A stretch of 52,396 nucleotides of DNA from a virus, in IMG/VR virus record IMGVR_UViG_3300036829_000063, positions 1-52,396 of that record; one strand, written 5' to 3'. Each line of letters opens with the position of its first letter. The stretch's first letter is position 1. Position numbers and translations under genes: made by a program. Of the stretch, positions 1,027 through 31,304 are shown piece by piece. The notes under the pieces are model-generated. The model was given only the letters and a program-made list of their open reading frames with translations. It was not told where the DNA came from and made no database searches.

Positions 1027-4000
1027 TTAGCGGACCACCAGCATCTTGAGCGCCGCCGCCGCCCTGATCATGGAGTTGTTCCTCCACCAGCAGAAGTAGC
1101 CCCGCTGGCCGGTCGGGTAGCCCACACCGGACCCAGCGGTTGCCTGCTGGAAGAGCTGGGGCACAAGCTCCATGTTCATGCCCACCCGGTCCACGATCAA
1201 GAACCCGGTCTTGAAGTCCCCGAAGATCAGGATCTTCTTGCCCGAGGTCGTGGCCGTGTCCATCGTGGACAGCTCACGCGCCGGGTAGCCCACGAGCTGG
1301 GGCGGACGCCCCGCACCCAGGTCCACCCACACGTTGGCCATGGTGCCCGTACCGAACTGGCGCACCAGGTCGTAGATGGCCGAGTCCGTCAGGAACTGGC
1401 CACGGCTCCGGAACCGGGGACCGACCGCGTTCTTGACCGCGTACACATCCGCCACCGTGAACGCCGCCGAGCCCGCCGTGAGCACCTGCTGGGCCGTGCC
1501 GAAAGTCGTGATCAGGCCACCCGCGTGGGGAGCCGTCCCATCACCCAGCACGAACCCGTTTGCGCCGGTTGCCTCCTCCTGGTCCTTGGCGTCCGCCAGG
1601 AGACCCATCATCTCGGCCTGGAGCCCGGCCCAGTCACCCTCGATCTCCACGGAGAACGGGATGAACCCCTGGACACGCTGGGGCTTGATCGTGGGCTGGG
1701 TCAGCGTCGGGCTGTTGTCCGTGTTGACCGCGTTCTCAGACCCACGGCTCACGGTCACCCCGGCCGTGTTCACCAGGTCCAGCTCCTTGGAGCTGATCTG
1801 GCGAACATCCGCCATGTCCCGGAGCGGGTTGATCGACCCATCGGAAGTCAGGGTCACGGACGGGTCCAGCTCGAAAGGAACCGCGAAACCGCCGTCAGCC
1901 CCGGAGTTGGTGCTGGTGCCCAGCGCTCCAAGGATCTGCTGGTCCCGAGGGTTGAGCATGTGCGGGCCGCCCGAGCGGAGCGCCAGGCCGAACACCCGGG
2001 AGTACTCCGGGTTACCCGTGGCCAGGATGCGCTGGGCGATCTCGCCGTCCTTGTCCGGCACCCGGGCCAGGAGCTTGGCCACCCGGCCCTGGACCGCCGC
2101 CGTGTCATCGTGGCCGGGGAACTTGGCCCGCTCGATCGCACGGAGCGCGTTGTCCTTGTAGGCCGCCCCCAGCTCGTCCGAGGAGCGCACGGTCTGGCGG
2201 ATGGCCGCCAGGTCGTAGATCTCGCTGCCACGGTCCCGGATGAACGCCGGGGCACCGTACATCGGGGCCGCACCCGGAGCCGCACCCTGGGCCGCACCCG
2301 CCGAGCCGTCGCGCGGGGCGTCACCAGCGAACCCGCCGGCCGCCGCCATCTGGGCCTGGCGGATACCGGCCAGCGCCGCCGCGTTCTCCATCTCGGTGGC
2401 CCGCGCAGCCACGGCCTGGAGGTTGAGCGCGTGGTCGCGCTGTTCCGCCAGGAGCTTCTCCCACTCGCCCTGCATCTCGGTGGGGAACTGGGATGACGGG
2501 TACTGGGCCGCCATGCTGTTGAGCAGGCCCGCGATCTCCTCCACACGGGACCGGCGGCCCTCAATCGTCCACTCCATGGTGGACCCTCCTCCACTTGTAT
2601 GGGTGGCCACCTGACCACCGTCTGGTGACGCCTGGGCGTGAACCGTGGGCGTCGAACCGGCCGCCGATGCCGCCGGGGGCTCATAATCGGGGTTGATGTC
2701 TTTCATCAGCCCCTCCAGCTTGGATCTGGCCGCCGCCTCATTGGTGAGGCCCTGAGCCTGGGGCAGCCGGGACAACGCCTGGCGGACCCCCTCAGCGTTG
2801 GGCGGGCTGTCCGGGGTGTAGCGGTACGGGAGCGCGTAGGCCGCCTGGGTGTTTGGGTCCTCACCGGACCGGCGGCCCGCCGTGATCCCCGCGTAAAACG
2901 CCGCCTTGTCATCAGCCGCCGCACCGTTGGCCCACGCCTTGGCCGCGTCCCATGCCGAGTTGTCCACGCTGGCCGCCCTCGGGAGCTGGGTGGCCGCGTT
3001 AGCCGGCATGGGGACAGCGCCAGTCCCGGTGGCCGGGTTGACCGGGATTGGCCTGAGCTGAGTCCCGTCCTCAGCCCAGTAATCGTGGTCCGTGTCCGTC
3101 CCGGGCTTGGAGTCGTCCTCCCCATCACCGTCCGGGTCGAACTGCCATGTCCCTCCCCGGTAGACCCAGCCGTTGTTATCCCCGGTGGCCGCCTCGGCCG
3201 CCGCTGTGGCCTCGGAGCTGGTGTTGCCCTGAGGCTGAGGCTCCGGGGCCGTGATCACCGGGCCGGGAGACGGCCGCACCCCAGCCGCTATCTGGTCACG
3301 CTCAGCCCGCCGGACAGCCAGGCTCGTGACGCTGGCCGCCACGGGCTCCGCCCCATCCACCTGGCTCTTGTCCGCCCGGCTGGACACGATGATCCCCGTC
3401 AGGAGACCAGCGTCAAGAGCCTGATCCGCCGTATACCAGGTTTCCGCTTGCATCACGGCCCGCCACTCAGCGTCCGTCCCGCCCACCGTCTGGGCCAGTA
3501 CCCGGGCCATCTGCTGGCTCACGGTCTCCAGCCGGGCCGCCATGGCCGTGAGCGCCGCCGCGTTCCCATCGGTGCCGGACCACGCCTCGTGGAGCATGAC
3601 CTGGCTCAGCTCGGCCCCGTAGCGCTCCTCCCCGGCCATCATCAGGAGAGCCGCCGAGGAGGCCGCCAGGCCGTCGTTATAGGTGTTCACGCCCTCACGC
3701 GCAATGAGCGCGTTAAAGATGGCGTACGCGTCGAACACTTCCCCGCCGGGAGAGTTGATGTGGAGATCCACCGCGCCGTCGATCTGGGCCAGGTCCGAGA
3801 TGAACTCCGAGGCCGTGACGCCCCAAAACCCGATCTCGTCGTACACATCCATCCGGGTGGGGCCGCTGGAGCCCTGAGCCTTGGCGTGGATGCGATACCA
3901 GGAGCGCCCCTCCACGCGCTGATGCCTATCCTCACGGGCCATGGCGTGAATCCTTCCCGGCCGACCGTGGCCGTTAGACGTGGCGTTGACCGCTCGGGCC

Positions 4001-5448
4001 GCCGCCGCTTGCCTCGCGCTCGGGGCCGGGGCATCGCCCGAGCCGCTATCTGGGGTGGTCTTGGCCGCATCGGCCGCCGGATCATCAGCCCCCGGAGTCT
4101 CCAGGTTGGGATCAGGCTCACCAGGCCCAGGAGGCTGGAGCTGGATAGAGGTCAACCCGGTGTGCTTGAGCACGCCCCAGTCGTTGGTCCGGACCGCCTC
4201 GGTAACGGTGTCCGGCTCGTAGCCCTCACGGATCAGCGTGGACATGGTGGTGGCCTCGGCCATCTGGACGTTGGCCCGGTCCTGGGCGTCCTGGCGCATG
4301 AACGGGACACGCATGTCATACCAGAGCGTGGCCTGGGGGCTGGGCTTGGTCAGGAGAGGCTCCAGGCTGGCCGCCGCCTCACCCCACAGATCCACCATCG
4401 TGCCGTCAGAGAACCGCCGCCGCGCGCTGTCAAAGTTGCCCGCGTTGAGCGCTGAGCCCTTGAGGCCCTCGGACATGCCAACCCAGCTCGGGGGAACCCC
4501 GGCCGCTGATGCCATCCTCAGCTCAGCGCTGGCCTGGAGGAGCGCATAGTCCATGTCCTTGAAATTGAGGCCCACCGCCACCGGGTCCGCCCCGCCACCC
4601 AGATACATGGTCTTGTATGCGTTGGCGATCCCGGCGTGCTCCTCCTCCAGCAGCTCTATGAACTGGCGCACCCGGTCAATGTCCTGAGCCGCGTCGAACT
4701 TGATAGCCAGGTTGGGCGTGGCCGCGTTGCGGAAAAACTCATCCTTGTGGTCGATGGCCGCCAGGTCTGCGCTCAGCTCCCGCATCACCGGAGTGATCCA
4801 CGACTGGCCCAGCCAGGAACAGTCCGGGTCCGGGATCGGGGCATAGTGCCCGATCTGCTGGGGAAAGAACCACTGAATCTGGCCGCCCGGCGGGCCGTAG
4901 ATGTAGCCCACCCTCTCGATATCCGCCGCCCACGCCGGATTATCCGGGCTCTCCTGAGATCCCAGGACCACGGTCATCCACTGGGGCTCCAGGACAAAGA
5001 TCTGGTTACCGCGCCGCCGCACGTACGCCTGCCCGGCGCTGGACCCATACCACTCCATGCGCTTGAGGAGGCTCTGGGTCGTGCCACCCGGCCACGGCCG
5101 CTCCAGCACCGCCAGTTCTTTGGACCCGTACAGGTCACCAGGCTGGGAGCCGGACATGTTGGTCCACTGGAAACGGGTCTGGCCGAACACCTGGGAACGG
5201 GCCAGGATCAGGGAGAACACCGTCGACGTGTACTTACCGGCCGACCGCTGATCCCGGACGATCTTCTCACGGTTGGTCTTGTTCATGGTGGTGTTGAGCA
5301 AGGGATAGCCCAACCCGCCATATGTCATCCACTGAGCCCACTGGCCAAAGTCCAGGCTCTCGATCGAAGCCCTCAGACTCTCCCGGGACACCCGGCCAGG
5401 GTCCGCCCGGCGGGCCAGCCTCGCCCTAGTCCGGTCGACCGCGCTCAC
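1027..5448 (-). CDS. portal - ClpP-like prohead protease - HK97-type major capsid protein in one frame
   Basis: A single uninterrupted frame of 1473 residues from a GTG start that overlaps the upstream small gene by 23 bases. Residues 1 to about 502 are a phage portal: MTYGGLGYPLLN start, SADLAAIDHKDEFFRNAATP, LKGSALNAGNFDSARRRF. From 503 (MAREDRHQ) comes a ClpP/S14-type prohead protease with DLHINSPGGEVFDAYAI, the Ser region GLAASSAALLMMAG (about 593-606), VMLHEAW with the likely catalytic His (about 620), and TADQALDAGL. A long disordered linker includes an Asp-rich stretch (DPDGDGEDD). From 958 (MEWTIEGRR) a 516-residue HK97-type capsid protein begins with a helical scaffold-like delta region, then the coat domain (GADGGFAVPFELDP, EIEGDWAG, LVGYPARELSTM). 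These three functions are usually separate genes. Two internal ATGs carry good ribosome-binding sites (separate entries), so single proteins may also be made. Functions are secure from family resemblance; the processing route is inferred. Confidence 0.93.
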   Translation of the reverse strand: MSAVDRTRARLARRADPGRVSRESLRASIESLDFGQWAQWMTYGGLGYPLLNTTMNKTNREKIVRDQRSAGKYTSTVFSLILARSQVFGQTRFQWTNMSGSQPGDLYGSKELAVLERPWPGGTTQSLLKRMEWYGSSAGQAYVRRRGNQIFVLEPQWMTVVLGSQESPDNPAWAADIERVGYIYGPPGGQIQWFFPQQIGHYAPIPDPDCSWLGQSWITPVMRELSADLAAIDHKDEFFRNAATPNLAIKFDAAQDIDRVRQFIELLEEEHAGIANAYKTMYLGGGADPVAVGLNFKDMDYALLQASAELRMASAAGVPPSWVGMSEGLKGSALNAGNFDSARRRFSDGTMVDLWGEAAASLEPLLTKPSPQATLWYDMRVPFMRQDAQDRANVQMAEATTMSTLIREGYEPDTVTEAVRTNDWGVLKHTGLTSIQLQPPGPGEPDPNLETPGADDPAADAAKTTPDSGSGDAPAPSARQAAAARAVNATSNGHGRPGRIHAMAREDRHQRVEGRSWYRIHAKAQGSSGPTRMDVYDEIGFWGVTASEFISDLAQIDGAVDLHINSPGGEVFDAYAIFNALIAREGVNTYNDGLAASSAALLMMAGEERYGAELSQVMLHEAWSGTDGNAAALTAMAARLETVSQQMARVLAQTVGGTDAEWRAVMQAETWYTADQALDAGLLTGIIVSSRADKSQVDGAEPVAASVTSLAVRRAERDQIAAGVRPSPGPVITAPEPQPQGNTSSEATAAAEAATGDNNGWVYRGGTWQFDPDGDGEDDSKPGTDTDHDYWAEDGTQLRPIPVNPATGTGAVPMPANAATQLPRAASVDNSAWDAAKAWANGAAADDKAAFYAGITAGRRSGEDPNTQAAYALPYRYTPDSPPNAEGVRQALSRLPQAQGLTNEAAARSKLEGLMKDINPDYEPPAASAAGSTPTVHAQASPDGGQVATHTSGGGSTMEWTIEGRRSRVEEIAGLLNSMAAQYPSSQFPTEMQGEWEKLLAEQRDHALNLQAVAARATEMENAAALAGIRQAQMAAAGGFAGDAPRDGSAGAAQGAAPGAAPMYGAPAFIRDRGSEIYDLAAIRQTVRSSDELGAAYKDNALRAIERAKFPGHDDTAAVQGRVAKLLARVPDKDGEIAQRILATGNPEYSRVFGLALRSGGPHMLNPRDQQILGALGTSTNSGADGGFAVPFELDPSVTLTSDGSINPLRDMADVRQISSKELDLVNTAGVTVSRGSENAVNTDNSPTLTQPTIKPQRVQGFIPFSVEIEGDWAGLQAEMMGLLADAKDQEEATGANGFVLGDGTAPHAGGLITTFGTAQQVLTAGSAAFTVADVYAVKNAVGPRFRSRGQFLTDSAIYDLVRQFGTGTMANVWVDLGAGRPPQLVGYPARELSTMDTATTSGKKILIFGDFKTGFLIVDRVGMNMELVPQLFQQATAGSGVGYPTGQRGYFCWWRNNSMIRAAAALKMLVVR
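2575..2592 (-). promoter_or_regulatory. internal ribosome-binding site and ATG for a stand-alone capsid protein
   Basis: GGAGGAGGG (2592-2584) lies 6 bases before an in-frame ATG (2577) that begins MEWTIEGRR, exactly where the capsid protein should start. Inside a coding frame such a strong site is unlikely to be chance. It would let capsid protein be made in excess over portal. Confidence 0.6.
3940..3956 (-). promoter_or_regulatory. internal ribosome-binding site and ATG for a stand-alone protease
   Basis: GGAAGGA lies 8 bases before an in-frame ATG (3942) that starts MAREDRHQ at the head of the protease domain. It is weaker than the capsid site but well placed, so separate synthesis of the protease-scaffold-capsid part is plausible. 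Confidence 0.45.
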
Positions 5449-5766: not shown

Positions 5767-6117
5767 CTACCCGATGCGCTCCAGCCAGTACCCGCCCACG
5801 CTGGGCAGATAGTCCGTGATCTCATACCGGACCACCAGATTGGTCCCGTTCACCGTCAAGATCCCGCCCACCAGACGGAACCCATCAGGAGCCAGCCCAA
5901 GGTGAGATGGCATCACCGGAGGCTTGATCGTGAACTCAGGCCACCACGCCGGAAACCCCAGGATGTGCCACAGCCGCTCCCCAGAGGTCACGAACTCCAC
6001 CGGAGCCGAGTCGACCACCAGCTCCCCCCACTCCAGCCGCCGCACCACCAGCTCACCCTGAGGGAGATGCTCCAGGTCCACTACCGGCGGGATCTCAGGC
6101 CGGGGCTCACCGCTCAC
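5767..6117 (-). CDS. hypothetical protein between terminase and portal
   Basis: About 116 residues. The start is uncertain: GTG at 6117 overlaps the terminase stop, and GTG at 6126 is also possible. The protein looks beta-rich: LPQGELVVRRLEWGELVV, FVTSGERLWHILGFPAWWPEFTI, LTVNGTNLVVRYEITDYLP. I recognise no family. Position between large terminase and portal suggests a head or packaging role, but nothing in the sequence shows one. The overlap with the terminase gene suggests coupled translation. Confidence 0.65.
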   Translation of the reverse strand: MSGEPRPEIPPVVDLEHLPQGELVVRRLEWGELVVDSAPVEFVTSGERLWHILGFPAWWPEFTIKPPVMPSHLGLAPDGFRLVGGILTVNGTNLVVRYEITDYLPSVGGYWLERIG

Positions 6118-7660
6118 GGCCTCCACGCCTACGGGCCGAGGAGATGATGAACGGGGCAGGGAGGGCCGTGGCCTCACCGTGGATGAACGCATACCGGGCC
6201 AGCGTGACCGCATCCATCGGAGTGACGTCGACAGCATCCGGACCCGTCCCCATTCCCCACGCCCACGCGCCCGCCAGTGGCCGCTTGACCGAGGTCTTAG
6301 CCGCTCCGTCCAGCTCGGTCTGGCCGATGTGCCACACCCGCCGGTTATCCAGGTCGTCCACCAGAGCGCCGCACGCCTGGGCGAACTCACGGGAACCTAC
6401 CAGGATCAGCTCCCGCTTGCGGGGCCGTTTCTTGTCCGCGTGGATGCCCTTTAGCGCCAGGTCATCCTCTGAGATCTTCTCCCGGGCACCAGGAGCGATA
6501 GCCACCGCCACGGCCGCGTGACGCTCGGCCAGGTCCGCTATCTGGTCAATGTGGCCGAGCGCTCCCAGTTCCCGCCAGACCAGCTCCACATGGAGGTCCC
6601 CGTCCTCCCGCCGGCCACACACCGCGATGTAGGTAACCGAGCGGTCCGGAGCGATGGCCGCACCGATCCCCAGCGTTCCCGTGAGCCTGCTCTCCACGTC
6701 CGCCTGGCGATCCCAGACCTCAGGAATCAGGCACTTGAGCGTGATGCTGGACTCATCCCGCCAGCCCATCATCTCCCGGCCATACTCGGCCGGTGTCATC
6801 GACGTTCGCAACGTCAGGAACGTCTCCGGGCGTGCCCGGCCGCCGTACTGAGGATTAGCTATCGCTATCATCTCGGGCTTGTCACAGCCACACCCTGGCG
6901 TCCCCCGCAGATGCTTGCAACGCTTCCCCAGGTCGCACGCTATCTCCGGATCAGGAGCCTTGTACTCCATGTAAAACATCGTGGGATCAGACCCCACCCG
7001 GCCCTGGTCTTGCATGTCCCGGAGCCAGTCCGACTCCGCCTTAGGGTGACTAGATCCCGTGAGGATCTGAGGATCTGCCTGGGCCGTGATCGTGGGCATC
7101 AGCGCGCCAACGTGAGCCGGCTTCACCGCGTAACCCTCATCCAGGATCACCCTCGGGGCCGACAGGGACCGGCCGTTGGCTGGCGTCCGCACCCGGAACA
7201 GCATCCGGCCGCCCCAGATCGTCTCCAGCGTCACGCCCGCGTCGTTGGTGCTGATATCCACGGTCTCCGCCGCCAGGTCCGGGCACCCCAGGATTAGCTC
7301 CCTCATGCCCTCCACCATCTCCTCATACGCCATGGAGTTGTGGGCCGAGTAGACCACCAAAGGAATCTGCTCTACGTAGAGCCAGCCAATCGACGCTTGC
7401 TTGAATAGCCCGGTCTTGCCCGTGGACTGGCGTGGCCCGACGATCACCCCGTGACGGACCGCCAGGAGCCCCTCCTCAGTCCGCCCGAAAATCGCATCCA
7501 ACATGAGCTGTTGCTGATCATCCGGAGGGAACCCAGCCTTGAGGCACAATAGAGCCACGTCCCGCCCGGTCGTCAGCACGTACTCCGGAGAGTGCAGATA
7601 CGCCGGGGGCTTGGGCCTCAGAGGCCGCTCCAGATCAAACGGGATCGGATCAGCCAGCAT
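6107..7660 (-). CDS. terminase large subunit
   Basis: 517 residues, the usual size. It is the ATP-driven DNA packaging motor and headful/cos nuclease acting at the portal. The start at ATG 7660 (MLADPIPF) has GGAGAGG upstream. Walker A is GPRQSTGKT (about 75-83) and Walker B is VILDEG (about 171-176). A Cys cluster (CDLGKRCKHLRGTPGCGC) sits between the ATPase and nuclease halves, as in many actinophage terminases. The C-terminal part shows LDGAAKTSVKRPLAGAWAW and VDVTPMDAVTLARYA, where the last nuclease Asp is expected. Two positions where I expect acidic residues read AAIAPDRS and AIAPGARE, so nuclease Asp residues may be replaced (see findings). The gene overlaps its neighbours on both sides. 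Confidence 0.93.
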   Translation of the reverse strand: MLADPIPFDLERPLRPKPPAYLHSPEYVLTTGRDVALLCLKAGFPPDDQQQLMLDAIFGRTEEGLLAVRHGVIVGPRQSTGKTGLFKQASIGWLYVEQIPLVVYSAHNSMAYEEMVEGMRELILGCPDLAAETVDISTNDAGVTLETIWGGRMLFRVRTPANGRSLSAPRVILDEGYAVKPAHVGALMPTITAQADPQILTGSSHPKAESDWLRDMQDQGRVGSDPTMFYMEYKAPDPEIACDLGKRCKHLRGTPGCGCDKPEMIAIANPQYGGRARPETFLTLRTSMTPAEYGREMMGWRDESSITLKCLIPEVWDRQADVESRLTGTLGIGAAIAPDRSVTYIAVCGRREDGDLHVELVWRELGALGHIDQIADLAERHAAVAVAIAPGAREKISEDDLALKGIHADKKRPRKRELILVGSREFAQACGALVDDLDNRRVWHIGQTELDGAAKTSVKRPLAGAWAWGMGTGPDAVDVTPMDAVTLARYAFIHGEATALPAPFIISSARRRGGRER

Positions 7661-7823
7661 CACGCCGCCTCTCCAGCTCAGCGTCCAGGTGGAGCACCGC
7701 ATCCGCCAAGCCCTGACCCTCCCGGCACCACAAGCCGCCGCTCACATGGCAAGGCTGGCACGCCTGCCGGTGGGCCACGAATCGGTCCAGCGCCCGGTCC
7801 CGCTCGGCCAGGAGATCAGGCAT
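7650..7823 (-). CDS. 57-residue zinc-ribbon-like microprotein
   Basis: Read by eye: ATG at 7823, starting MPDLLAERDRALDRFVAHR, stop overlapping the terminase start. It carries CQPCHVSGGLWC, three cysteines and a histidine in a short span that could hold one zinc. The rest is helical and charged (HLDAELERRRDAG). It overlaps the preceding gene's stop by 8 bases. Such CxxC microproteins are common in actinophage small-gene blocks; no function is known to me. Confidence 0.65.
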   Translation of the reverse strand: MPDLLAERDRALDRFVAHRQACQPCHVSGGLWCREGQGLADAVLHLDAELERRRDAG

Positions 7824-8672: not shown

Positions 8673-9797
8673 CTACCGCGCCATCTGGGCAAACAACTTG
8701 TGGATCAGCACCCCATCCCCCTGAGGAGGCCGGGACACGCTCCGGTAATCCATCGTGGCGTTGAGAGCCCCCGGGAGCAACGACCACGCCATCACCCCGA
8801 TGTGGTGAGCCTTGCAGTACGCGAAATAGCGCCGCACCGTCCGGCCCATGTGCTTCCAATGGAAGCTCCCCCGGTAGTTGGCAAACTCAGCGTCCAGCAC
8901 CGGGACGTGATGATCCGCCAGAAGCCCGAAATTCTCATCCCACGTGGCCTTGGTCGGAGCCGCCTGATAGTCCCACGGGGAACCCGGGTGATGGTATGTG
9001 TAGACCAGCGGAGGGAAGCCCTTGGGCTGGCGGAGCATCGGCACCCCGGCCAGCGTCGACGCCCACCGGATGCCCTCCAGCCAGATCGAGTTGGTGGCCC
9101 CGGACGCCCGGATGGTGTCCACGAGGCCCTGGAAAGCCACCCGCCACTGATCCCACGACGCGTGCCGGGGCTCATTAAACAGGTCCAGGACCACGCGCGG
9201 ATTGTCCCGCCAGGCCCGCACCCCGAGCACATGACGCCAAAACGCATACGTGGCCGCCGTGGGCAACGGCTCAGACAGATCCCAGCCCGTGGCCAGCTCC
9301 GTCTGAGCATTGAGCACCATCCGGAGACCCAGCCTCAGGCCGTACCGCATCACCCGCCGGACATAACCCCAGTAGCGCCGGTTAAGATCCCGGCCGCTGG
9401 CTCCCATCGCGCGATCCTGCTGGACCTGGAGACGGATGGTGTCCGCGTGCCACCACACCTTGGCCGCGTAGATCTTCCGCTCCATGGTCGTGACCGTGGT
9501 ATCGCTCACCAGGTACGACTGGAGGTCAGACAGCGTGATCCCGTGCGGGATATCCCCACCAGGCCACTGATAGACGCCCACCGGGCCGCTGAAATGCTGG
9601 CCCTGGTCACTCCGGGCCGCCCCCAGCAGCGGAACCACCACGGCCACGGCCGCGACCAGCGCCACCAGGCCGACCAGCCACCGCCTCCACGGCCGCCGCT
9701 TCCGCCGCTTCCCCCGCTTGATCTGCTCTGCCAGCTCCCACAGCTCGTCCAGCGTGTAGAGCGCCGGCCTCGTGTCCAGGCACGCGTCAACCTCCAT
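8673..9797 (-). CDS. membrane-anchored glycoside hydrolase family 5 (cellulase/mannanase-like)
   Basis: 374 residues; start at ATG 9797 after GGAGAGAGGAG. About 40 cytoplasmic residues ending in a basic patch (KRGKRRKRRPWRRW) precede one transmembrane helix (LVGLVALVAAVAVVVPLL), so it should be a type II membrane protein with its catalytic domain outside. That domain shows GH5 features: the acid/base motif DLFNEPRHAS, the nucleophile region VPVLDAEFANY, VYTYHHPG and a late Trp strand GVMAWSLLPG. GH5 enzymes cut beta-1,4-linked glucans or mannans; the actual substrate is open. It is the first gene of the head operon and is headed by a palindromic promoter. Options are plant-polymer breakdown for the host, action on host capsule or wall glycan, or help with release. 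No similar gene lies elsewhere in the window. Confidence 0.85.
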   Translation of the reverse strand: MEVDACLDTRPALYTLDELWELAEQIKRGKRRKRRPWRRWLVGLVALVAAVAVVVPLLGAARSDQGQHFSGPVGVYQWPGGDIPHGITLSDLQSYLVSDTTVTTMERKIYAAKVWWHADTIRLQVQQDRAMGASGRDLNRRYWGYVRRVMRYGLRLGLRMVLNAQTELATGWDLSEPLPTAATYAFWRHVLGVRAWRDNPRVVLDLFNEPRHASWDQWRVAFQGLVDTIRASGATNSIWLEGIRWASTLAGVPMLRQPKGFPPLVYTYHHPGSPWDYQAAPTKATWDENFGLLADHHVPVLDAEFANYRGSFHWKHMGRTVRRYFAYCKAHHIGVMAWSLLPGALNATMDYRSVSRPPQGDGVLIHKLFAQMAR

Positions 9798-9830
9798 GGT
9801 GGATCTCCTCTCTCCACCGGACACGATACA

Positions 9831-9840
9831 CCACGCGTGG
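9831..9840 (-). promoter_or_regulatory. palindromic operator-promoter for the head operon
   Basis: CCACGCGTGG, a shorter member of the CCACACGTGTGG family. Reading leftward it is followed at once by TGTATC as a -10-like hexamer and then the GGAGAGAGGAG leader of the GH5 gene. Confidence 0.6.
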
Positions 9841-9870
9841 GGAATATCCACCACGCTCTTGCCGTTACTC

Positions 9871-13900: not shown

Positions 13901-16900
13901 TCAGCCGGAATGGACAGAGCCGAGGCCCCATCGCTGGCTAGCGTCTCCAGCAGCGTAACCGGAGCTGTGGGCCGGGCCAATGATCCACCGCACGTGGACC
14001 TCACCAAGTCGCCACGGGCCGGGGTTGTATGGCTTGGCCGCCACCACTGTGGGTGAGGCCAGGACCGCCGCGCAAGCGATCACCACGGCCTGGACGAGGG
14101 AGCCGGTGTGCATCGCTGGGATCGAGATGGTGGCTGTGGCCGTGATCACACCGGGGCTGGCCTGAGCGCCGCCGTGGGGGCTGGCTGTCCCGATCGTGGC
14201 TGTGACCGAGACGACCGAGGGCGTGGCCTTGGTGATGGTCGACACCACGGGCGTGGTGATGGTGGCCGATACGGAGATGACAACTGGGTTGGCAACTGCG
14301 CCCGTGTTGGGTGCCGGGTTGCCAACTGTTGCGATCCCCGGCACCACTCCTGGGGTGACTTTGGTCCCGGTGTTGGGTGTGGTCGTCCCGAACGTTGCGA
14401 GAGCCGGCACCACGCCCGGGGTGGCAGTGCTGGCCGCACCCACCACGGCCGCCCCGATGGTGGCCAGGGCTGGCACCACGCCGGGCTTGGCTGTGGAGCT
14501 GGCCTGGATTACCGCCGCCCCGACCGTGGCGACCGAGGCCACCACGCCGGGCTTGGCTGTTTCCCCGGTGCTGGGGGCCGCCGCCCCGATCGTGGCCACG
14601 CTGGACACGACCGCCGGGGCCGGGATGCTGGCTGGCGAGGATGCGCCGATGGTGGCCACAGCCGGGACCACGGCTGGGGACGCGTTCTGATCCACGTAGG
14701 CCGTGGTGGTGAGCCTCAGCCGATCCCAGTAGTAATCCACCGAGGCCACGGCCGCACCCACACCCGGCCGGATGGCCGTGATCGTGCCGCCCGTGTTTTG
14801 GTTGGCCGCGCTGGTGTGGACCTCGGCTGGGGCACCGTCGTTTTTACCCGCGTAGAACCTCAGCTCACCCTGGCCGACGCTGGCGTCCCCGAGGATGAAC
14901 CCGGCTACCCGGAACCACTGGCCAGCGGTCCACGTGCCGGTTAGCTGAGCCATGACGCCAGCCGCCGCGTTAACAAGCTGGACGTTGCCCGCCGTGGTGA
15001 GCTGGATATACCCGGCCAGGGAGCTAGCGCCGGTCACGAACGTGATGACTCTGTGGTTGTGCGCCGGGAACGCTGAGAGCCAGAGGTCGATGGTGAAAAA
15101 CCACAACGGCTGGGTGCCGATGCTGGCCTTGTACTCCCCATAGACCGCCTCTCCCGTGGCGTCCGTGGTGATGTGATAGCTGAGCGTCCCCTCAGCTACC
15201 TGGGTACTGGAATAGGTGAAGGTCCCGCCAGCAGCAATTGGGACCGAATCGAATGCGTCCCCCGACGCGCCGCCACTGTTTCCGGCCGTGACCGTTACCC
15301 CGTTGGTGCCTCCCTCAGCGTTGAGGGAGAGCGCTGTTTTGGTGGCGCTTACCGTGGGAGCGCCGATGGTGGCCACGCCGGGCACCACCGAGGGCGTGAC
15401 CTTGCTCCCGGTATTGGGAGCTGGGCTGGGCACCGAGGCCACACAGGCCACCACGGCCGGTGTGACGGTTTCCCCGGTCTTGACCACCGTGGAGCCGACG
15501 CTGGCCGGGCAGGCAACCACCGGGGGTGTGGCCATGCTCCCGGCCCCGACTGTGGGTGAGCCGATGGTGGCCACACAAGAGATCACGCTGGGCTGGGTGG
15601 TGTTGAACGTGTCCGTCTGGGAGACCTGGGCCACCGCGTTGGTGGCATCCCAGCCTTGGAAGTTGACCGAGATCACCGAGCCGGTGTCCGTGATCGTGAT
15701 CCGGCCGTACTGGCGGGCCTCCCCGCCCGTGTTGTTATACAGGGCTGAGAACGTGGATTGCATCAGGCCGCCGCCCGTATTCAGCAGCGGGGCCGCGCAG
15801 TAGACCGGGAACCCTCCCCACGTGTTCTTAGCGGACGTGGCGTAACCCACCAGGTGGCTGTCACCATGCCAGAGCATCAGGTTTTTGACGGCCGCCCGGT
15901 TGGCGTTGATGTAGCTGATGATGGCCTGGCGCTCAGTGTCGTATGACCACCACTTGTCCGGCCCGTTGCTGATGGTGGGCGTCCCCATCCAAGCCACATC
16001 ACTGATGATGACCTTGAGTGGTTCGGACTGGACCAGCTCCGATTCCAGCCACGCCAACTGGGTGGCCCCGAGCATGGTCTTGGAGCCGTCATCGGTGTTG
16101 CCGCCGGGGCTCCGGTCCGTGTTCCGGATATCCACCATGATGAACCGGACGCGCCCGACCACCCATGATTGGTAGAGGCCGTGGACTGGGGTGTTGACGG
16201 TATCCCCGAGCGTCCCGAACGGGAATACCTGGCGGGCCGCTGCGATGTTGGCCGCCGTATACGCGTTATTGGAGTCCCCGTTGTCCGGGCCGGCCTCGTG
16301 GTCCGAACGGCAGTAGTAGCCCCAGGTGGTCTCCACCATGGCCGCCAGGCCGGGGATGCCAGCTATCTGGCTCTCGTAGACACCACGCTGGGTGTCGGTG
16401 CTGGTGGCCGTGCTCCCCGAGTAATCGAAGTCCCCGGTAAAGATCGTCAGGTCCGGAGCCCATGCCACCAGGTCATTGATGGCCGTGTTTTGGGCTGGGC
16501 TGGTCACATCTTGCTCAGCGACACAGGCCGCCAGGGCCACAGTGAAGCTAGCCGGGCTCCCCGAGGCCGCCAGGGTCTTACAGGAGCCGATGGGGCCGAC
16601 CAGCGTCTCCGCCCCGCCAGTGGGCGTGTCCGCCGCCTGGACGTAGTACCTCGTGGCCGCGCTGAGGCCGCTCACCGCGTGGGTGACGTACCCGTTTGCG
16701 TCTGGGGTCTGGGCGGATACAAAGCTCGGGCTGGTCATGCTCGGGCTGGTGGAGTACGCCAGCCGGACCGAGGTAGCGCCGGACAGTTTGGTGATGACAC
16801 CAAACCCGCTCGGGGTCGGTGCGCCAGCCACAAGCTGGGCCACGGTCCCCGGGAGCGGGACGATCGGGGCCGCCTTGATACCCAGGAGGAGACCAGCGGT

Positions 16901-18466
16901 TATCTGGGTGGTGCCAGTGAATGATCCGGCCACCGAGCCCGTGGTCCCATGCGCCACCTGGGCCTGGATAGCCGCGATCGTGCCCGTGTTGACCGTGCCT
17001 GAGCCCGAGCCGTTGGCCTGGCTACAGGCCGCCGTGTAGCCCGCCGGGACCGTGATATCCGGGGGTGTGCCACCAGAGCCGATGCGGTCCGCGCCAAGCC
17101 AGACCAGGAGGAGGCCGTCCGTGGTCGTGGTGATCCCGGCCGCCGTGATGGCGTTGCTGGCCGCGTTGCTCTGGCCAGAGCCCGGGGTGTCGGATGGGTC
17201 AAACGGGTGGGTGGTGCTAGTCACCGGGACCACACCGATAATCGCGTTCCACGTGTGGCTGATCGAGATGGTGAGCGTGTAGCTCCCCGAGGCCGCCGCC
17301 TTGGCCACGTCCGAGCTGTCCGCGATCTTGCTAAATAGCTGGGTGGACTCCGCTGGGGAGCTGGAGCTGTTGGCTGTCTCGGCCGAGAGGCTGTCCGCCG
17401 GGTCTGAGGTCCATGTGTGGCTGGCGAAACCGGCCACGGCCCAGATAAAGATCAGGTCACCGATGGCGCATGGCTGGGCCGGGACAGCCAGTGTCAGGGA
17501 ACCGCCGCCCGTGGTGACGGACTGGCACGAGCGGAGCGCCAGCGGGTTGACCAGCGGAGAGCCGATCGTGGCCGTGGCCGCCACCACGCTGGGAGTGACC
17601 TTTTCGCCCGTGTTCACGATGGCCGAGCCGATGGACGCCACGCACGCCACGACCGCCGGGGTGGGCTTGCTCACCGGGCTGGACGCCCCGATGGACGCCA
17701 CCGCCGCCACGACCGAGGGCGTTACCGTCTCCCCGGTAGTCACCGTGGCCGAGCCAACAGACGCCACGCACGCCACGACCGATGGTGTGGGTGTGGGAGC
17801 TGGTGGTTGGAACACCACCACGGCCCCGGCCAGGAACGCCCCAAGATTGGTGTAGCTGAAAGACTCGGACAGCGTGGCCCCGGATGTGGGGTTGGATTGC
17901 GTCCCGTAGATCCAATGCGCCCGAGTGCTGGTCGTCCCGTTGTCTCCGGTGTTGGTCCAGCCCGAGCCAGCTCCCAGAGTGGACGTGCCCTGAGCGCTCA
18001 GCGCGATGGACGCCGCACCGAGGGCGTAACAACCCGTCTGGGGCACATTGCCACTGGTGGTGACCACAAACGGGCTGGCTGTGGTGCCGGTAGCTGTCCC
18101 CGAAGCCCCCACGGGGGTGGTGGCGTCGACGCCGGCCAGCTCGTGGAGTTGAGCGGACAGCGTGGAGAACGTGGCCGTCCCGGTGTTCGTGGCCGAGACT
18201 GTGGGAGCCGCATCCGAACCGGCCGCCACCTTGCCGAAGTAGGTAACACTGGCCCGGCTGGAGCCCTTGATCGTGAGGAGCTGGGTCCAGCCCGCCGGCG
18301 TGCCCGGTGTCCCGCCGGTCGTGCCGCCCCAGTTGGTGACCTTGCAGACCAGGTAGTTACCGGCCGTCCGGGTCTGGCTGGCATCCCAGCTCGGGGACAC
18401 CGATGGGGCGTTAGTCCCCGAGCTAACCGCTGGCGCTGCCGGTGTGCCGACCTCAGTTACGGACAC
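13901..18466 (-). CDS. giant tail-fibre-like protein with embedded PhoD-like phosphatase and repeat arrays
   Basis: 1521 residues from GTG 18466 with GGGGAGG upstream. Apparent order: two beta-rich domains (about 1-224 and 306-545), an FN3-like segment (VRLAYSTSPSMTSPS, RYYVQAADTP), a PhoD/purple-acid-phosphatase-like domain (about 635-955), a concanavalin/LamG-like beta-sandwich (about 1040-1255), and three arrays of 20-22-residue repeats. The phosphatase keeps likely metal ligands: IFTGDFDYSG, YYCRSDHEAGPD (DHE) and LMLWHGDSHLVG (GDSH). The C-terminus ends HVRWIIGPAHSSGYAAGD. A minor tail or receptor-binding protein that cuts a phosphodiester in the host envelope, for example teichoic acid or phospholipid, is the natural reading; PhoD enzymes have such substrates. 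The substrate is not shown by sequence. The gene could also be a secreted phosphatase, but the repeats and neighbours favour a virion fibre. Confidence 0.85.
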   Translation of the reverse strand: MSVTEVGTPAAPAVSSGTNAPSVSPSWDASQTRTAGNYLVCKVTNWGGTTGGTPGTPAGWTQLLTIKGSSRASVTYFGKVAAGSDAAPTVSATNTGTATFSTLSAQLHELAGVDATTPVGASGTATGTTASPFVVTTSGNVPQTGCYALGAASIALSAQGTSTLGAGSGWTNTGDNGTTSTRAHWIYGTQSNPTSGATLSESFSYTNLGAFLAGAVVVFQPPAPTPTPSVVACVASVGSATVTTGETVTPSVVAAVASIGASSPVSKPTPAVVACVASIGSAIVNTGEKVTPSVVAATATIGSPLVNPLALRSCQSVTTGGGSLTLAVPAQPCAIGDLIFIWAVAGFASHTWTSDPADSLSAETANSSSSPAESTQLFSKIADSSDVAKAAASGSYTLTISISHTWNAIIGVVPVTSTTHPFDPSDTPGSGQSNAASNAITAAGITTTTDGLLLVWLGADRIGSGGTPPDITVPAGYTAACSQANGSGSGTVNTGTIAAIQAQVAHGTTGSVAGSFTGTTQITAGLLLGIKAAPIVPLPGTVAQLVAGAPTPSGFGVITKLSGATSVRLAYSTSPSMTSPSFVSAQTPDANGYVTHAVSGLSAATRYYVQAADTPTGGAETLVGPIGSCKTLAASGSPASFTVALAACVAEQDVTSPAQNTAINDLVAWAPDLTIFTGDFDYSGSTATSTDTQRGVYESQIAGIPGLAAMVETTWGYYCRSDHEAGPDNGDSNNAYTAANIAAARQVFPFGTLGDTVNTPVHGLYQSWVVGRVRFIMVDIRNTDRSPGGNTDDGSKTMLGATQLAWLESELVQSEPLKVIISDVAWMGTPTISNGPDKWWSYDTERQAIISYINANRAAVKNLMLWHGDSHLVGYATSAKNTWGGFPVYCAAPLLNTGGGLMQSTFSALYNNTGGEARQYGRITITDTGSVISVNFQGWDATNAVAQVSQTDTFNTTQPSVISCVATIGSPTVGAGSMATPPVVACPASVGSTVVKTGETVTPAVVACVASVPSPAPNTGSKVTPSVVPGVATIGAPTVSATKTALSLNAEGGTNGVTVTAGNSGGASGDAFDSVPIAAGGTFTYSSTQVAEGTLSYHITTDATGEAVYGEYKASIGTQPLWFFTIDLWLSAFPAHNHRVITFVTGASSLAGYIQLTTAGNVQLVNAAAGVMAQLTGTWTAGQWFRVAGFILGDASVGQGELRFYAGKNDGAPAEVHTSAANQNTGGTITAIRPGVGAAVASVDYYWDRLRLTTTAYVDQNASPAVVPAVATIGASSPASIPAPAVVSSVATIGAAAPSTGETAKPGVVASVATVGAAVIQASSTAKPGVVPALATIGAAVVGAASTATPGVVPALATFGTTTPNTGTKVTPGVVPGIATVGNPAPNTGAVANPVVISVSATITTPVVSTITKATPSVVSVTATIGTASPHGGAQASPGVITATATISIPAMHTGSLVQAVVIACAAVLASPTVVAAKPYNPGPWRLGEVHVRWIIGPAHSSGYAAGDASQRWGLGSVHSG
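14043..14693 (-). repeat. C-terminal repeat array, about ten units of 20-22 residues
   Basis: Degenerate units of the form TP-x-VV-x-x-VATIG-x(8-10), for example PGVVPALATIGAAV and PSVVSVTATIGTAS, encoded in the giant tail protein. Ala, Val, Thr and Gly dominate, without charge. A beta-solenoid or stalk is likely. Confidence 0.8.
15354..15597 (-). repeat. middle repeat array, about four units
   Basis: Same unit as the C-terminal array (PSVISCVATIGSPTV, PAVVACVASVPSPAP), placed between the phosphatase and the LamG-like domain. Confidence 0.75.
17553..17793 (-). repeat. N-proximal repeat array, about four units
   Basis: Same unit (PSVVACVASVGSATV, PAVVACVASIGSAIV), linking the first two beta-rich domains. 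All three arrays act as interdomain spacers. Confidence 0.75.
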
Positions 18467-29851: not shown

Positions 29852-30727
29852 TCAGGTGGTAAGCAGTCCCTTACCTCTGGCCCAGGTGTCCAGCGCACCC
29901 TGGAGGATCACCAGGTCCGGGCGGGTCCGCCGCTGGGCCGCCCACGGGCCGGCGATCTGCCACAGCGCCTCGTCCAGGTCCGCCGGGGGAGTGGGCGTGG
30001 GAGCTGGCGTCGAGTTGGGCAGGAACACCGTGCAGTCCCCACCCTCGGAGAACAGCTCATCCATGGTCTCCATGGTGAACCGCATGTTTCCGCCCTGGCC
30101 CCACGAGGAGCCCCAGGAGTTGCGGGCATGGAAGTAGCCGCCAGCCACGTCGACACCATGGACCAGGAACTCATGGCCGCCACGGACCTGGGCACCCTTG
30201 GCGATGGCGATCGTTCCCTGAGCGTCCGGCTCATCGAACGAATCGAACCACGAGACGCCCACGATGACCGGGCCGTCCTGGAGCGCGTCCGTCATGTCGT
30301 CCACGTCCGCGCAGTGGGTGTAACCGGAGATGAACCCGGCCGCCTTGGTGGCCTTGGCCCCGCTGAGGCCGTCCGAGCCGGTGTCGGTGGGCGGATACTG
30401 CCCACGGTACGGGTCCAGCTTGGTGGCCGCCGAGTACAGGGCCACGGCCTCGGCCTCGTCCAGGACCGCGTGGCCCGCCGGGAGCGCCGCCTCTATGGGG
30501 TCCGTAGCCGAGCACCCACACGACGCGTTACCCACGCATGAACCCAGGTCTCCCTGGTCCAGCGGGTTGATGCTGATCGTCCACTCCTCGGATACCGGGG
30601 TGGCCGCCGACCGCTGGTGGCGGTAGAACATCAGCGATCGGAGGTCGTGGCGGATGTGACGGCCCAGCCGCTTGTCCGGGACCACCAGCTCCGGGATATG
30701 CACCGTGTGAATCAGTGGGTTAGCCAT
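29852..30727 (-). CDS. papain-like (C1) cysteine peptidase
   Basis: 291 residues from ATG 30727 (MANPLIHTVHIPELVVPDK) after GGAGGAGAGATCC. The catalytic triad is visible: oxyanion Gln and nucleophile Cys in LDQGDLGSCVGNASCGCS, His in RGGHEFLVHGVDVAGG, and Asn in HARNSWGSSWGQGGNMRF, with the classic NSWG-x-SWG. No signal peptide, so it should act in the cytosol. The C-terminal 50 residues after a Pro/Thr linker (PAPTPTPPADLDEALWQI) form a small helical extra domain, perhaps for targeting. C1 peptidases are uncommon in phages; the target could be a host or phage protein. It is not next to structural genes, which speaks against a head-maturation role. Confidence 0.85.
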   Translation of the reverse strand: MANPLIHTVHIPELVVPDKRLGRHIRHDLRSLMFYRHQRSAATPVSEEWTISINPLDQGDLGSCVGNASCGCSATDPIEAALPAGHAVLDEAEAVALYSAATKLDPYRGQYPPTDTGSDGLSGAKATKAAGFISGYTHCADVDDMTDALQDGPVIVGVSWFDSFDEPDAQGTIAIAKGAQVRGGHEFLVHGVDVAGGYFHARNSWGSSWGQGGNMRFTMETMDELFSEGGDCTVFLPNSTPAPTPTPPADLDEALWQIAGPWAAQRRTRPDLVILQGALDTWARGKGLLTT

Positions 30728-30759
30728 GTGTGGATCTCTCCTCCATCGTGGGAATGGGA

Positions 30760-30797
30760 CGGCCCGGCCGTCCCTGAGGGTCAGGATAGCCGGGCCG
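30760..30797 (-). terminator. hairpin upstream of the peptidase gene
   Basis: CGGCCCGGC (30760-30768) and GCCGGGCCG (30789-30797), 20-base loop, 22 bases past the stop of the preceding gene. Confidence 0.5.
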
Positions 30798-30818
30798 CCT
30801 GAGGGAGGCTGGGAGCCT

Positions 30819-31304
30819 TTACCTGGAGTTGTCCTCCTGGTCCGCCGGGCCGGGGGTGTTGGCGATCGGGTCGTCATCCCGGGCCGGGAGGATGCCAGTC
30901 CGGGGCTCACGCGCTCGGGCCGCCTCCTCATCACTCACGGGCTCGGTGCCGTGGTCCTCCGGTGGGACCTCCCGCTCCTGGGGGATGATCCCGCCATCAG
31001 CGTCCCGCTGGGTCTCCTGGTCCTTGTTCTCCGCCATGGCTGGCTCCATTCCTGGCGGGCCACCGTGGCCGCCTGGGCCGCCGCTACCCTGCTGGGCCGC
31101 CACCATGCGGTCCGTCAGGTAGTGGAGGAGGTCCAGCGCACCCTCCCGCCAGCACATCCGGATGGACTCCGCCAGATCCGGCCATCCCGGGAGCGTCTCC
31201 CCGGAGACCATGGACACGCCCCCGGACTGGCGGACGTAACCCTCATAGCAGATCTGGCCAGGGTCCGGTCCTGGGAGCTGGAGATTGGCCCACTCGTCAG
31301 TCAC
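30819..31304 (-). CDS. hypothetical, acidic C-terminus
   Basis: 161 residues from GTG 31304, overlapping the upstream stop by 8 bases. The first half looks folded (GPDPGQICYEGYVRQSGGV, SIRMCWREGALDLLHYLTD). A Gly/Pro linker and a long acidic disordered tail follow (DADGGIIPQEREVPPEDHG). No motif recognised. Confidence 0.7.
   Translation of the reverse strand: MTDEWANLQLPGPDPGQICYEGYVRQSGGVSMVSGETLPGWPDLAESIRMCWREGALDLLHYLTDRMVAAQQGSGGPGGHGGPPGMEPAMAENKDQETQRDADGGIIPQEREVPPEDHGTEPVSDEEAARAREPRTGILPARDDDPIANTPGPADQEDNSR

Follow-up and report, generated by a model that had tools for sequence, protein, structure and literature searches.

How could a phage supply about 12 portal subunits and hundreds of capsid subunits to the same head if portal, protease and capsid protein were all encoded by one uninterrupted reading frame? 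The question is raised by the window analysed here, the 52,396 bases (67% GC) at positions 1 to 52,396 of the viral record IMGVR_UViG_3300036829_000063, in which a simple check found no terminal repeats. A sequence-only reading had described a continuous frame of 1473 residues in the order portal, protease, capsid. The frame is present at exactly the positions then given, on the minus strand (which that reading had left unstated), and the same order is recovered from Pfam and from PHROGs, whose labels for it are portal, head maturation protease and major head protein. The coordinates are collected in Table 1.

Table 1. Features of the three-way frame and its surroundings in the window (residues are numbered from the GTG start).
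Feature	Position	Strand	Remarks
Terminase large subunit gene	6107-7702	minus	three-way frame lies downstream of terminase, on the same strand
Three-way open frame portal-protease-capsid, 1473 aa	1027..5448	minus	GTG start at 5448, stop at 1029-1027
Phage_portal domain (residues 108-393)	4270..5127	minus	Pfam; similarity to relatives kept until about residue 430
Portal tail / linker 1 (residues 431-502)	3943..4158	minus	Ala/Pro/Gly/Ser/Thr-rich (62%), SNGHG motif
Shine-Dalgarno-like GGGAAGGA upstream of ATG 503	3951..3958	minus	duplex -6.5 kcal/mol, seventh best of 93 in-frame ATG/GTG
Internal ATG (residue 503), candidate protease start	3940..3942	minus	homology with separate protease-capsid genes
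ClpP-type protease domain (residues 558-688)	3385..3777	minus	Pfam; triad positions Ser597, His620, Glu669
Protease C-terminal region and linker 2 (residues 701-957)	2578..3348	minus	block ~825-935 common to L002, partly to L024 and L028
Shine-Dalgarno-like GGAGGAGGG upstream of ATG 958	2584..2592	minus	duplex -11.9 kcal/mol, best of 93 in-frame starts
Internal ATG (residue 958), capsid N-terminus	2575..2577	minus	confidently modelled part starts here
Delta/scaffold-like N-terminal capsid region (residues 958 to ~1173)	1930..2577	minus	mostly helical, ~216 residues; putative cut point
HK97-fold capsid domain (residues 1186-1469)	1042..1893	minus	Pfam, profile and structure matches

The frame contains no stop over its 1473 codons and measures 1490 codons from stop to stop. 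Length alone is little proof of coding in DNA of this GC content, because the antisense strand of the same region holds open frames of 665 and 605 codons, and stop-to-stop length was therefore dropped as evidence. The portal part matches PF04860 (E value 2.5e-21) with 76.6 bits against a curated cut-off of 39.1 and has the expected position downstream of the terminase. The protease part matches PF00574 (E value 8.9e-23) and phrog_2976 (E value 5.1e-55), and the capsid part matches PF05065 (E value 6.6e-26). A search of the whole record with the portal and capsid Pfam models gave one match each, both within the frame, and no second portal or capsid. The domains flanking each linker share one reading frame. 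A codon-usage test clearly favoured this frame for residues 431-466, for residues 503-560 in the protease and for residues 701-930, favoured it weakly for residues 467-502, and gave it no support in the 27 codons immediately before ATG 958, a loss of coding signal that is as expected of a ribosome-binding region. The domains, the codon usage and an in-frame portal-tail motif described below support coding in one phase across the frame.

The protease was assigned to the ClpP-type head maturation proteases by its profile match together with the conserved Ser, His and acid positions. The acid is Glu669 where ClpP has Asp, so the protease is a putative one, although this Glu is invariant among the nine aligned relatives. 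An AlphaFold model of the 971-residue protease-capsid chain, built from nine sequences, reached a pLDDT of 40 and was discarded. The earlier description of long disordered linkers is too simple for linker 2 (residues ~701-957), where a recognisable block is kept in some relatives and absent from others.

The capsid part matches the Mycofy1 capsid (9lw6; E value 4.6e-153), as well as GTA and HK97 chains. Its AlphaFold model has a mean pLDDT of 86, and a Foldseek search with this model returned HK97-fold capsids at a probability of 1.00, so that fold and profile both identify an HK97-fold major capsid protein. Confidence in the model is high from the N-terminus onward, so the nested Met at residue 958 falls on a domain boundary. 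The Mycofy1 homologue is 543 residues long, only about 290 of which appear in the mature-head model, and this is consistent with removal of the N-terminal half. A cut of this kind in the window phage would also release the portal-protease part from the shell.

The relatives were surveyed in IMG/VR, in the GTDB species genomes and in phage collections, with the portal, the protease-capsid part and the whole frame as queries. With phage records added, this gave 219 sequences (including the window); the genome censuses covered samples of 397 and 395 genomes. Protease and capsid are fused, as they are in the window, in 59 related loci, the protease being of the ClpP type in 24 and of another prohead-protease type in 35. 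Portal and protease were both seen in 130 loci, and only in the window do they share a frame, the portal there not being a separate gene. This bears out the rarity claimed for the three-way fusion. Each of the 24 loci with the same ClpP-capsid fusion reads its portal in a different frame, the end of which usually overlaps the protease start as ATGA. The sequence-only reading had also held that the three core head genes are normally separate. This needs adjusting for protease and capsid, the fusion of which is the common state in the window's clade and has been published in other actinophages. The pattern named there as speaking against the fusion, three separate genes in all close relatives, did not appear; two genes were found, a portal and a protease-capsid. 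The homologue search proposed at the same time was run and yielded no second sequence with a portal-protease-capsid fusion. The junction peptide has no match in IMG/VR, and in the sample of 395 genomes of the class a capsid-profile search gave no frame above 965 aa. Two actinobacterial genomes have portal frames of around 1000 aa; these were set aside, as they have no protease or capsid profile match and by eye resemble portal-MuF fusions.

On the portal tree, the smallest supported set holding the window consists of the window and 18 ClpP-capsid fusions, and the protease-capsid fusion state changed repeatedly along the tree. As the window lies within this set, the two-way fusion is most likely ancestral, with the portal joined later. 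The three-way state looks derived and is so far a singleton, in searches that may miss records very close to the window. Among these related phages, one and the same capsid protein has a ClpP-type protease as its fusion partner in some loci (the window, L002, L024-L029 in our numbering) and an S78-like protease in others (L005, L020-L022, L030-L048), so that the protease module upstream of the nested capsid start has been swapped. Extra DNA lies between the portal and protease genes in two loci (L004:3985-4515 and L025:3471-4021), and the former insert resembles by eye a homing-endonuclease-type gene. In a prophage-like region of an Acidimicrobiia MAG (L144), the portal, protease and capsid matches are spread over many short frames, suggesting a decayed prophage or poor sequence.

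With the fusion confined to one contig, the junction of portal and protease has to be weighed against error. It is possible, though in our view unlikely, that the junction is an artefact of assembly or sequencing, or that a recent mutation has damaged a now defective genome, and that the portal of the living phage has its own stop. Such an origin would fit a state seen in one sequence only when every relative has a separate portal. Also in its favour are a run of five G in linker 1 near residue 452, stops nearby in the -1 frame at 454, 455, 467, 491, 505 and 507, and the weak coding signal of residues 467-502. Against it stands the motif SNGHG in the portal tail, which matches the portal C-terminus SNGNGAR of many relatives. 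This SNG-G motif is in phase with the portal about 11 codons upstream of ATG 503, and an indel upstream would part the two. The SNGxG motif occurs only in frame 0; by shuffling, its chance of arising is about 0.003 for frame 0 and 0.0085 if any frame is allowed. The relatives also allow the junction itself to be compared. The portal TGA and the protease ATG overlap as ATGA in 17 of the 22 ClpP-capsid loci with an assignable start; in the window this ATGA is replaced by ATGG, because of which the ancestral +1 frame, if read onward, meets its first stop only at residue 587. From the AAC of SNGNG to the ATG there are 20 nt in loci of the L028 type against 33 nt in the window, a junction about 13 nt longer, so that portal and protease are in phase. 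The two junctions are thus at least two changes apart, and one miscalled base is an insufficient explanation, as it does not restore the ancestral junction; an error on top of natural divergence is possible. The other large genes tested in the contig appear intact. We favour an account in which the portal lost its ancestral stop, the TGA of the ATGA shared with the protease start, and in which both genes would have come into phase through a net change of about 13 nt.

If the fused frame is real, the abundance of its products would depend on where translation starts. Shine-Dalgarno strength was calculated as the predicted duplex energy with the 16S tail and compared with that of in-frame ATG/GTG codons and of synonymous shuffles. 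The N-termini that had been placed near residues 503 and 958 coincide exactly with ATG codons preceded by Shine-Dalgarno-like sites. At ATG 958, GGAGGAGGG was equalled by none of 500 synonymous shuffles; at ATG 503, GGGAAGGA is a moderate site (synonymous-shuffle p ~0.11). Both sites have the form of nested genes, i.e., in-frame internal start codons with ribosome-binding-like sequences, and the earlier proposal of internal starts, cleavage or both was judged right. Across the protease-capsid fusions, an in-frame ATG/GTG is found at the capsid N-terminus in 59 of 60 (window among them), and a duplex of -4.5 kcal/mol or better in 46 of 49 distinct upstream sequences, compared with about 3.5 expected from windows elsewhere in the same frames. 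In synonymous shuffling over the fusions the mean was -6.5 observed against -5.4 shuffled (Wilcoxon p 0.015, among relatives that are not independent). This excess is modest, as a purine-rich sequence is already favoured by the amino acids encoded there. The capsid-start site of the window is the strongest among the protease-capsid fusions. It is thus a near-general trait of protease-capsid fusion genes, distant ones included, that the capsid N-terminus has an in-frame start preceded by a Shine-Dalgarno-like site.

We consider it reasonably probable that the frame consists of three nested, 3'-coterminal cistrons in a tailed actinobacterial phage, and that it arose by loss of the portal stop on a two-way fusion. 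Most translation would begin from the strong site at ATG 958 and give free capsid protein (516 aa, 55 kDa). Less protease-capsid (971 aa, 102 kDa) would come from the weaker site at ATG 503, and a little of the full chain (157 kDa), the sole portal source in the contig, from the portal start. Because no stop follows the portal, every portal would be born attached. The predicted rise in initiation strength from ATG 503 to ATG 958 matches what a head requires, namely few protease copies against capsid subunits in the hundreds. Portal C-terminus, protease and capsid delta region are all directed inward in the proheads of HK97 and lambda, and by analogy with these phages the full chain could co-assemble. 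Linker 1, in which no cleavage site was identified, and the delta region would then probably be cut by the internal protease within the prohead, which would release the portal from the shell. We propose more tentatively, and with slightly less than even confidence, a viable phage whose only portal source is the 1473-residue chain, in which nested starts of rising strength set the copy numbers and the protease is tethered at the portal vertex until the maturation cut, so that vertex nucleation, protease recruitment and shell assembly are coupled.

The single uninterrupted frame, its long flexible linkers and its internal protease would also suit a true polyprotein, in which no internal start is used and proteolysis of one 157 kDa chain supplies all capsid, protease and portal, a strategy of some eukaryotic viruses. 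We regard this as improbable: portal and capsid would be made 1:1, and there are Shine-Dalgarno-like start sites at both internal N-termini, the capsid one recurring across fusions. Least credible is programmed -1 frameshifting where the portal tail ends, making free portal that stops at TGA (505) or TAG (507) with the fusion as a minor product, since, although these stops lie directly past ATG 503 beside a Shine-Dalgarno-like sequence that could promote slippage, residues 428-508 contain no X-XXY-YYZ slippery heptamer, -1 stops are frequent anyway (48 across the whole frame), and the relatives, all with a normal portal stop, were never seen to need such a signal.

Three nested cistrons would have a partial precedent in the C/Nu3 genes of lambda, where an in-frame start inside the head-protease gene yields a more abundant, shorter product with the same C-terminus. 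Both systems have an in-frame internal start in a head-protease gene, that of the window being a candidate. In lambda, however, it is the scaffold that is made from the nested start, and portal (gpB) and capsid (gpE) have genes of their own, whereas in the window the nested product would be the capsid and the portal is in frame. The closest counterparts are uncultured and prophage relatives (L002, L024, L026, L028, L029, L102, L103, L149-L163; among them Streptomyces sp. Ag109_O5-1 as L102 and Actinacidiphila cocklensis as L103), which share with the window the portal (at best 62% identity), the ClpP-type protease-capsid fusion and a Shine-Dalgarno-like site with an ATG at the capsid N-terminus. 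They differ in that the portal has its own stop in another frame, mostly in an ATGA overlap with the protease start.

Single genes for protease, scaffold and capsid have been described in phages of Arthrobacter (clusters AM, AU and AN; PMC5513430), Microbacterium (cluster EE; PMC7302621) and Rhodococcus (RRH1 and the cluster CF phages Jflix2 and Shagrat; PMC13313380), and in gp5 of Pseudomonas phage MD8 (PMC8508860). As in the window, a head protease, a delta or scaffold region and an HK97-fold capsid are joined in one gene; unlike in the window, the portal is a separate gene in those checked, and the Rhodococcus fusions have another prohead-protease type in place of the ClpP type. The portal and capsid parts of Shagrat, REQ1 and Madraxi are homologous to those of the window. 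Similar nested capsid start sites were noted in the distant published fusions of RRH1 (L221:5258), GMA5 (L222), GRU3 (L230), KylieMac and Noely; Whytu has a weaker site, and none is evident in SallySpecial or EricDab. Portal-MuF fusions in phages of Arthrobacter (cluster AK; PMC5513430) and Microbacterium (clusters EA and EB; PMC7302621) likewise join the portal to a downstream head protein, but to a MuF-type domain and not to protease and capsid. A portal-protease-capsid fusion was not found in the published open-access papers searched. The protease-capsid fusion is thus already known; new is the portal joined to the protease-capsid frame, which rests on one contig.

Other genes of the contig, all on the minus strand, also carry recognisable domains. 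Near the terminase, the gene at 8673-9854 encodes a glycosyl hydrolase family 5 (cellulase) domain (PF00150; E value 1.2e-18) with a hydrophobic N-terminal stretch. The gene at 13901-18466 encodes a 1521-residue protein with a PhoD-like phosphatase domain (PF09423; E value 1.2e-9) and repeated TPxVVAxVASIGS motifs; no tandem repeat was detected in its DNA. A papain-family cysteine protease domain (PF00112, E value 1.5e-6; phrog_16701, E value 8.9e-49) is encoded at 29852-30934.

It has long been asked how exactly one vertex of the head acquires a portal and by what route the protease comes to lie inside. If the proposal is true, a chain linking portal, protease and capsid subunit would physically couple these steps and make them testable. 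The wider observation, that capsid start sites are retained in protease-capsid fusions, may outweigh the three-way fusion in importance. Fusions are usually annotated as one protein; since a start site at the capsid N-terminus is nearly always kept, many annotated 'fusion capsids' probably encode free capsid too, which bears on both virion proteomics and gene calling.
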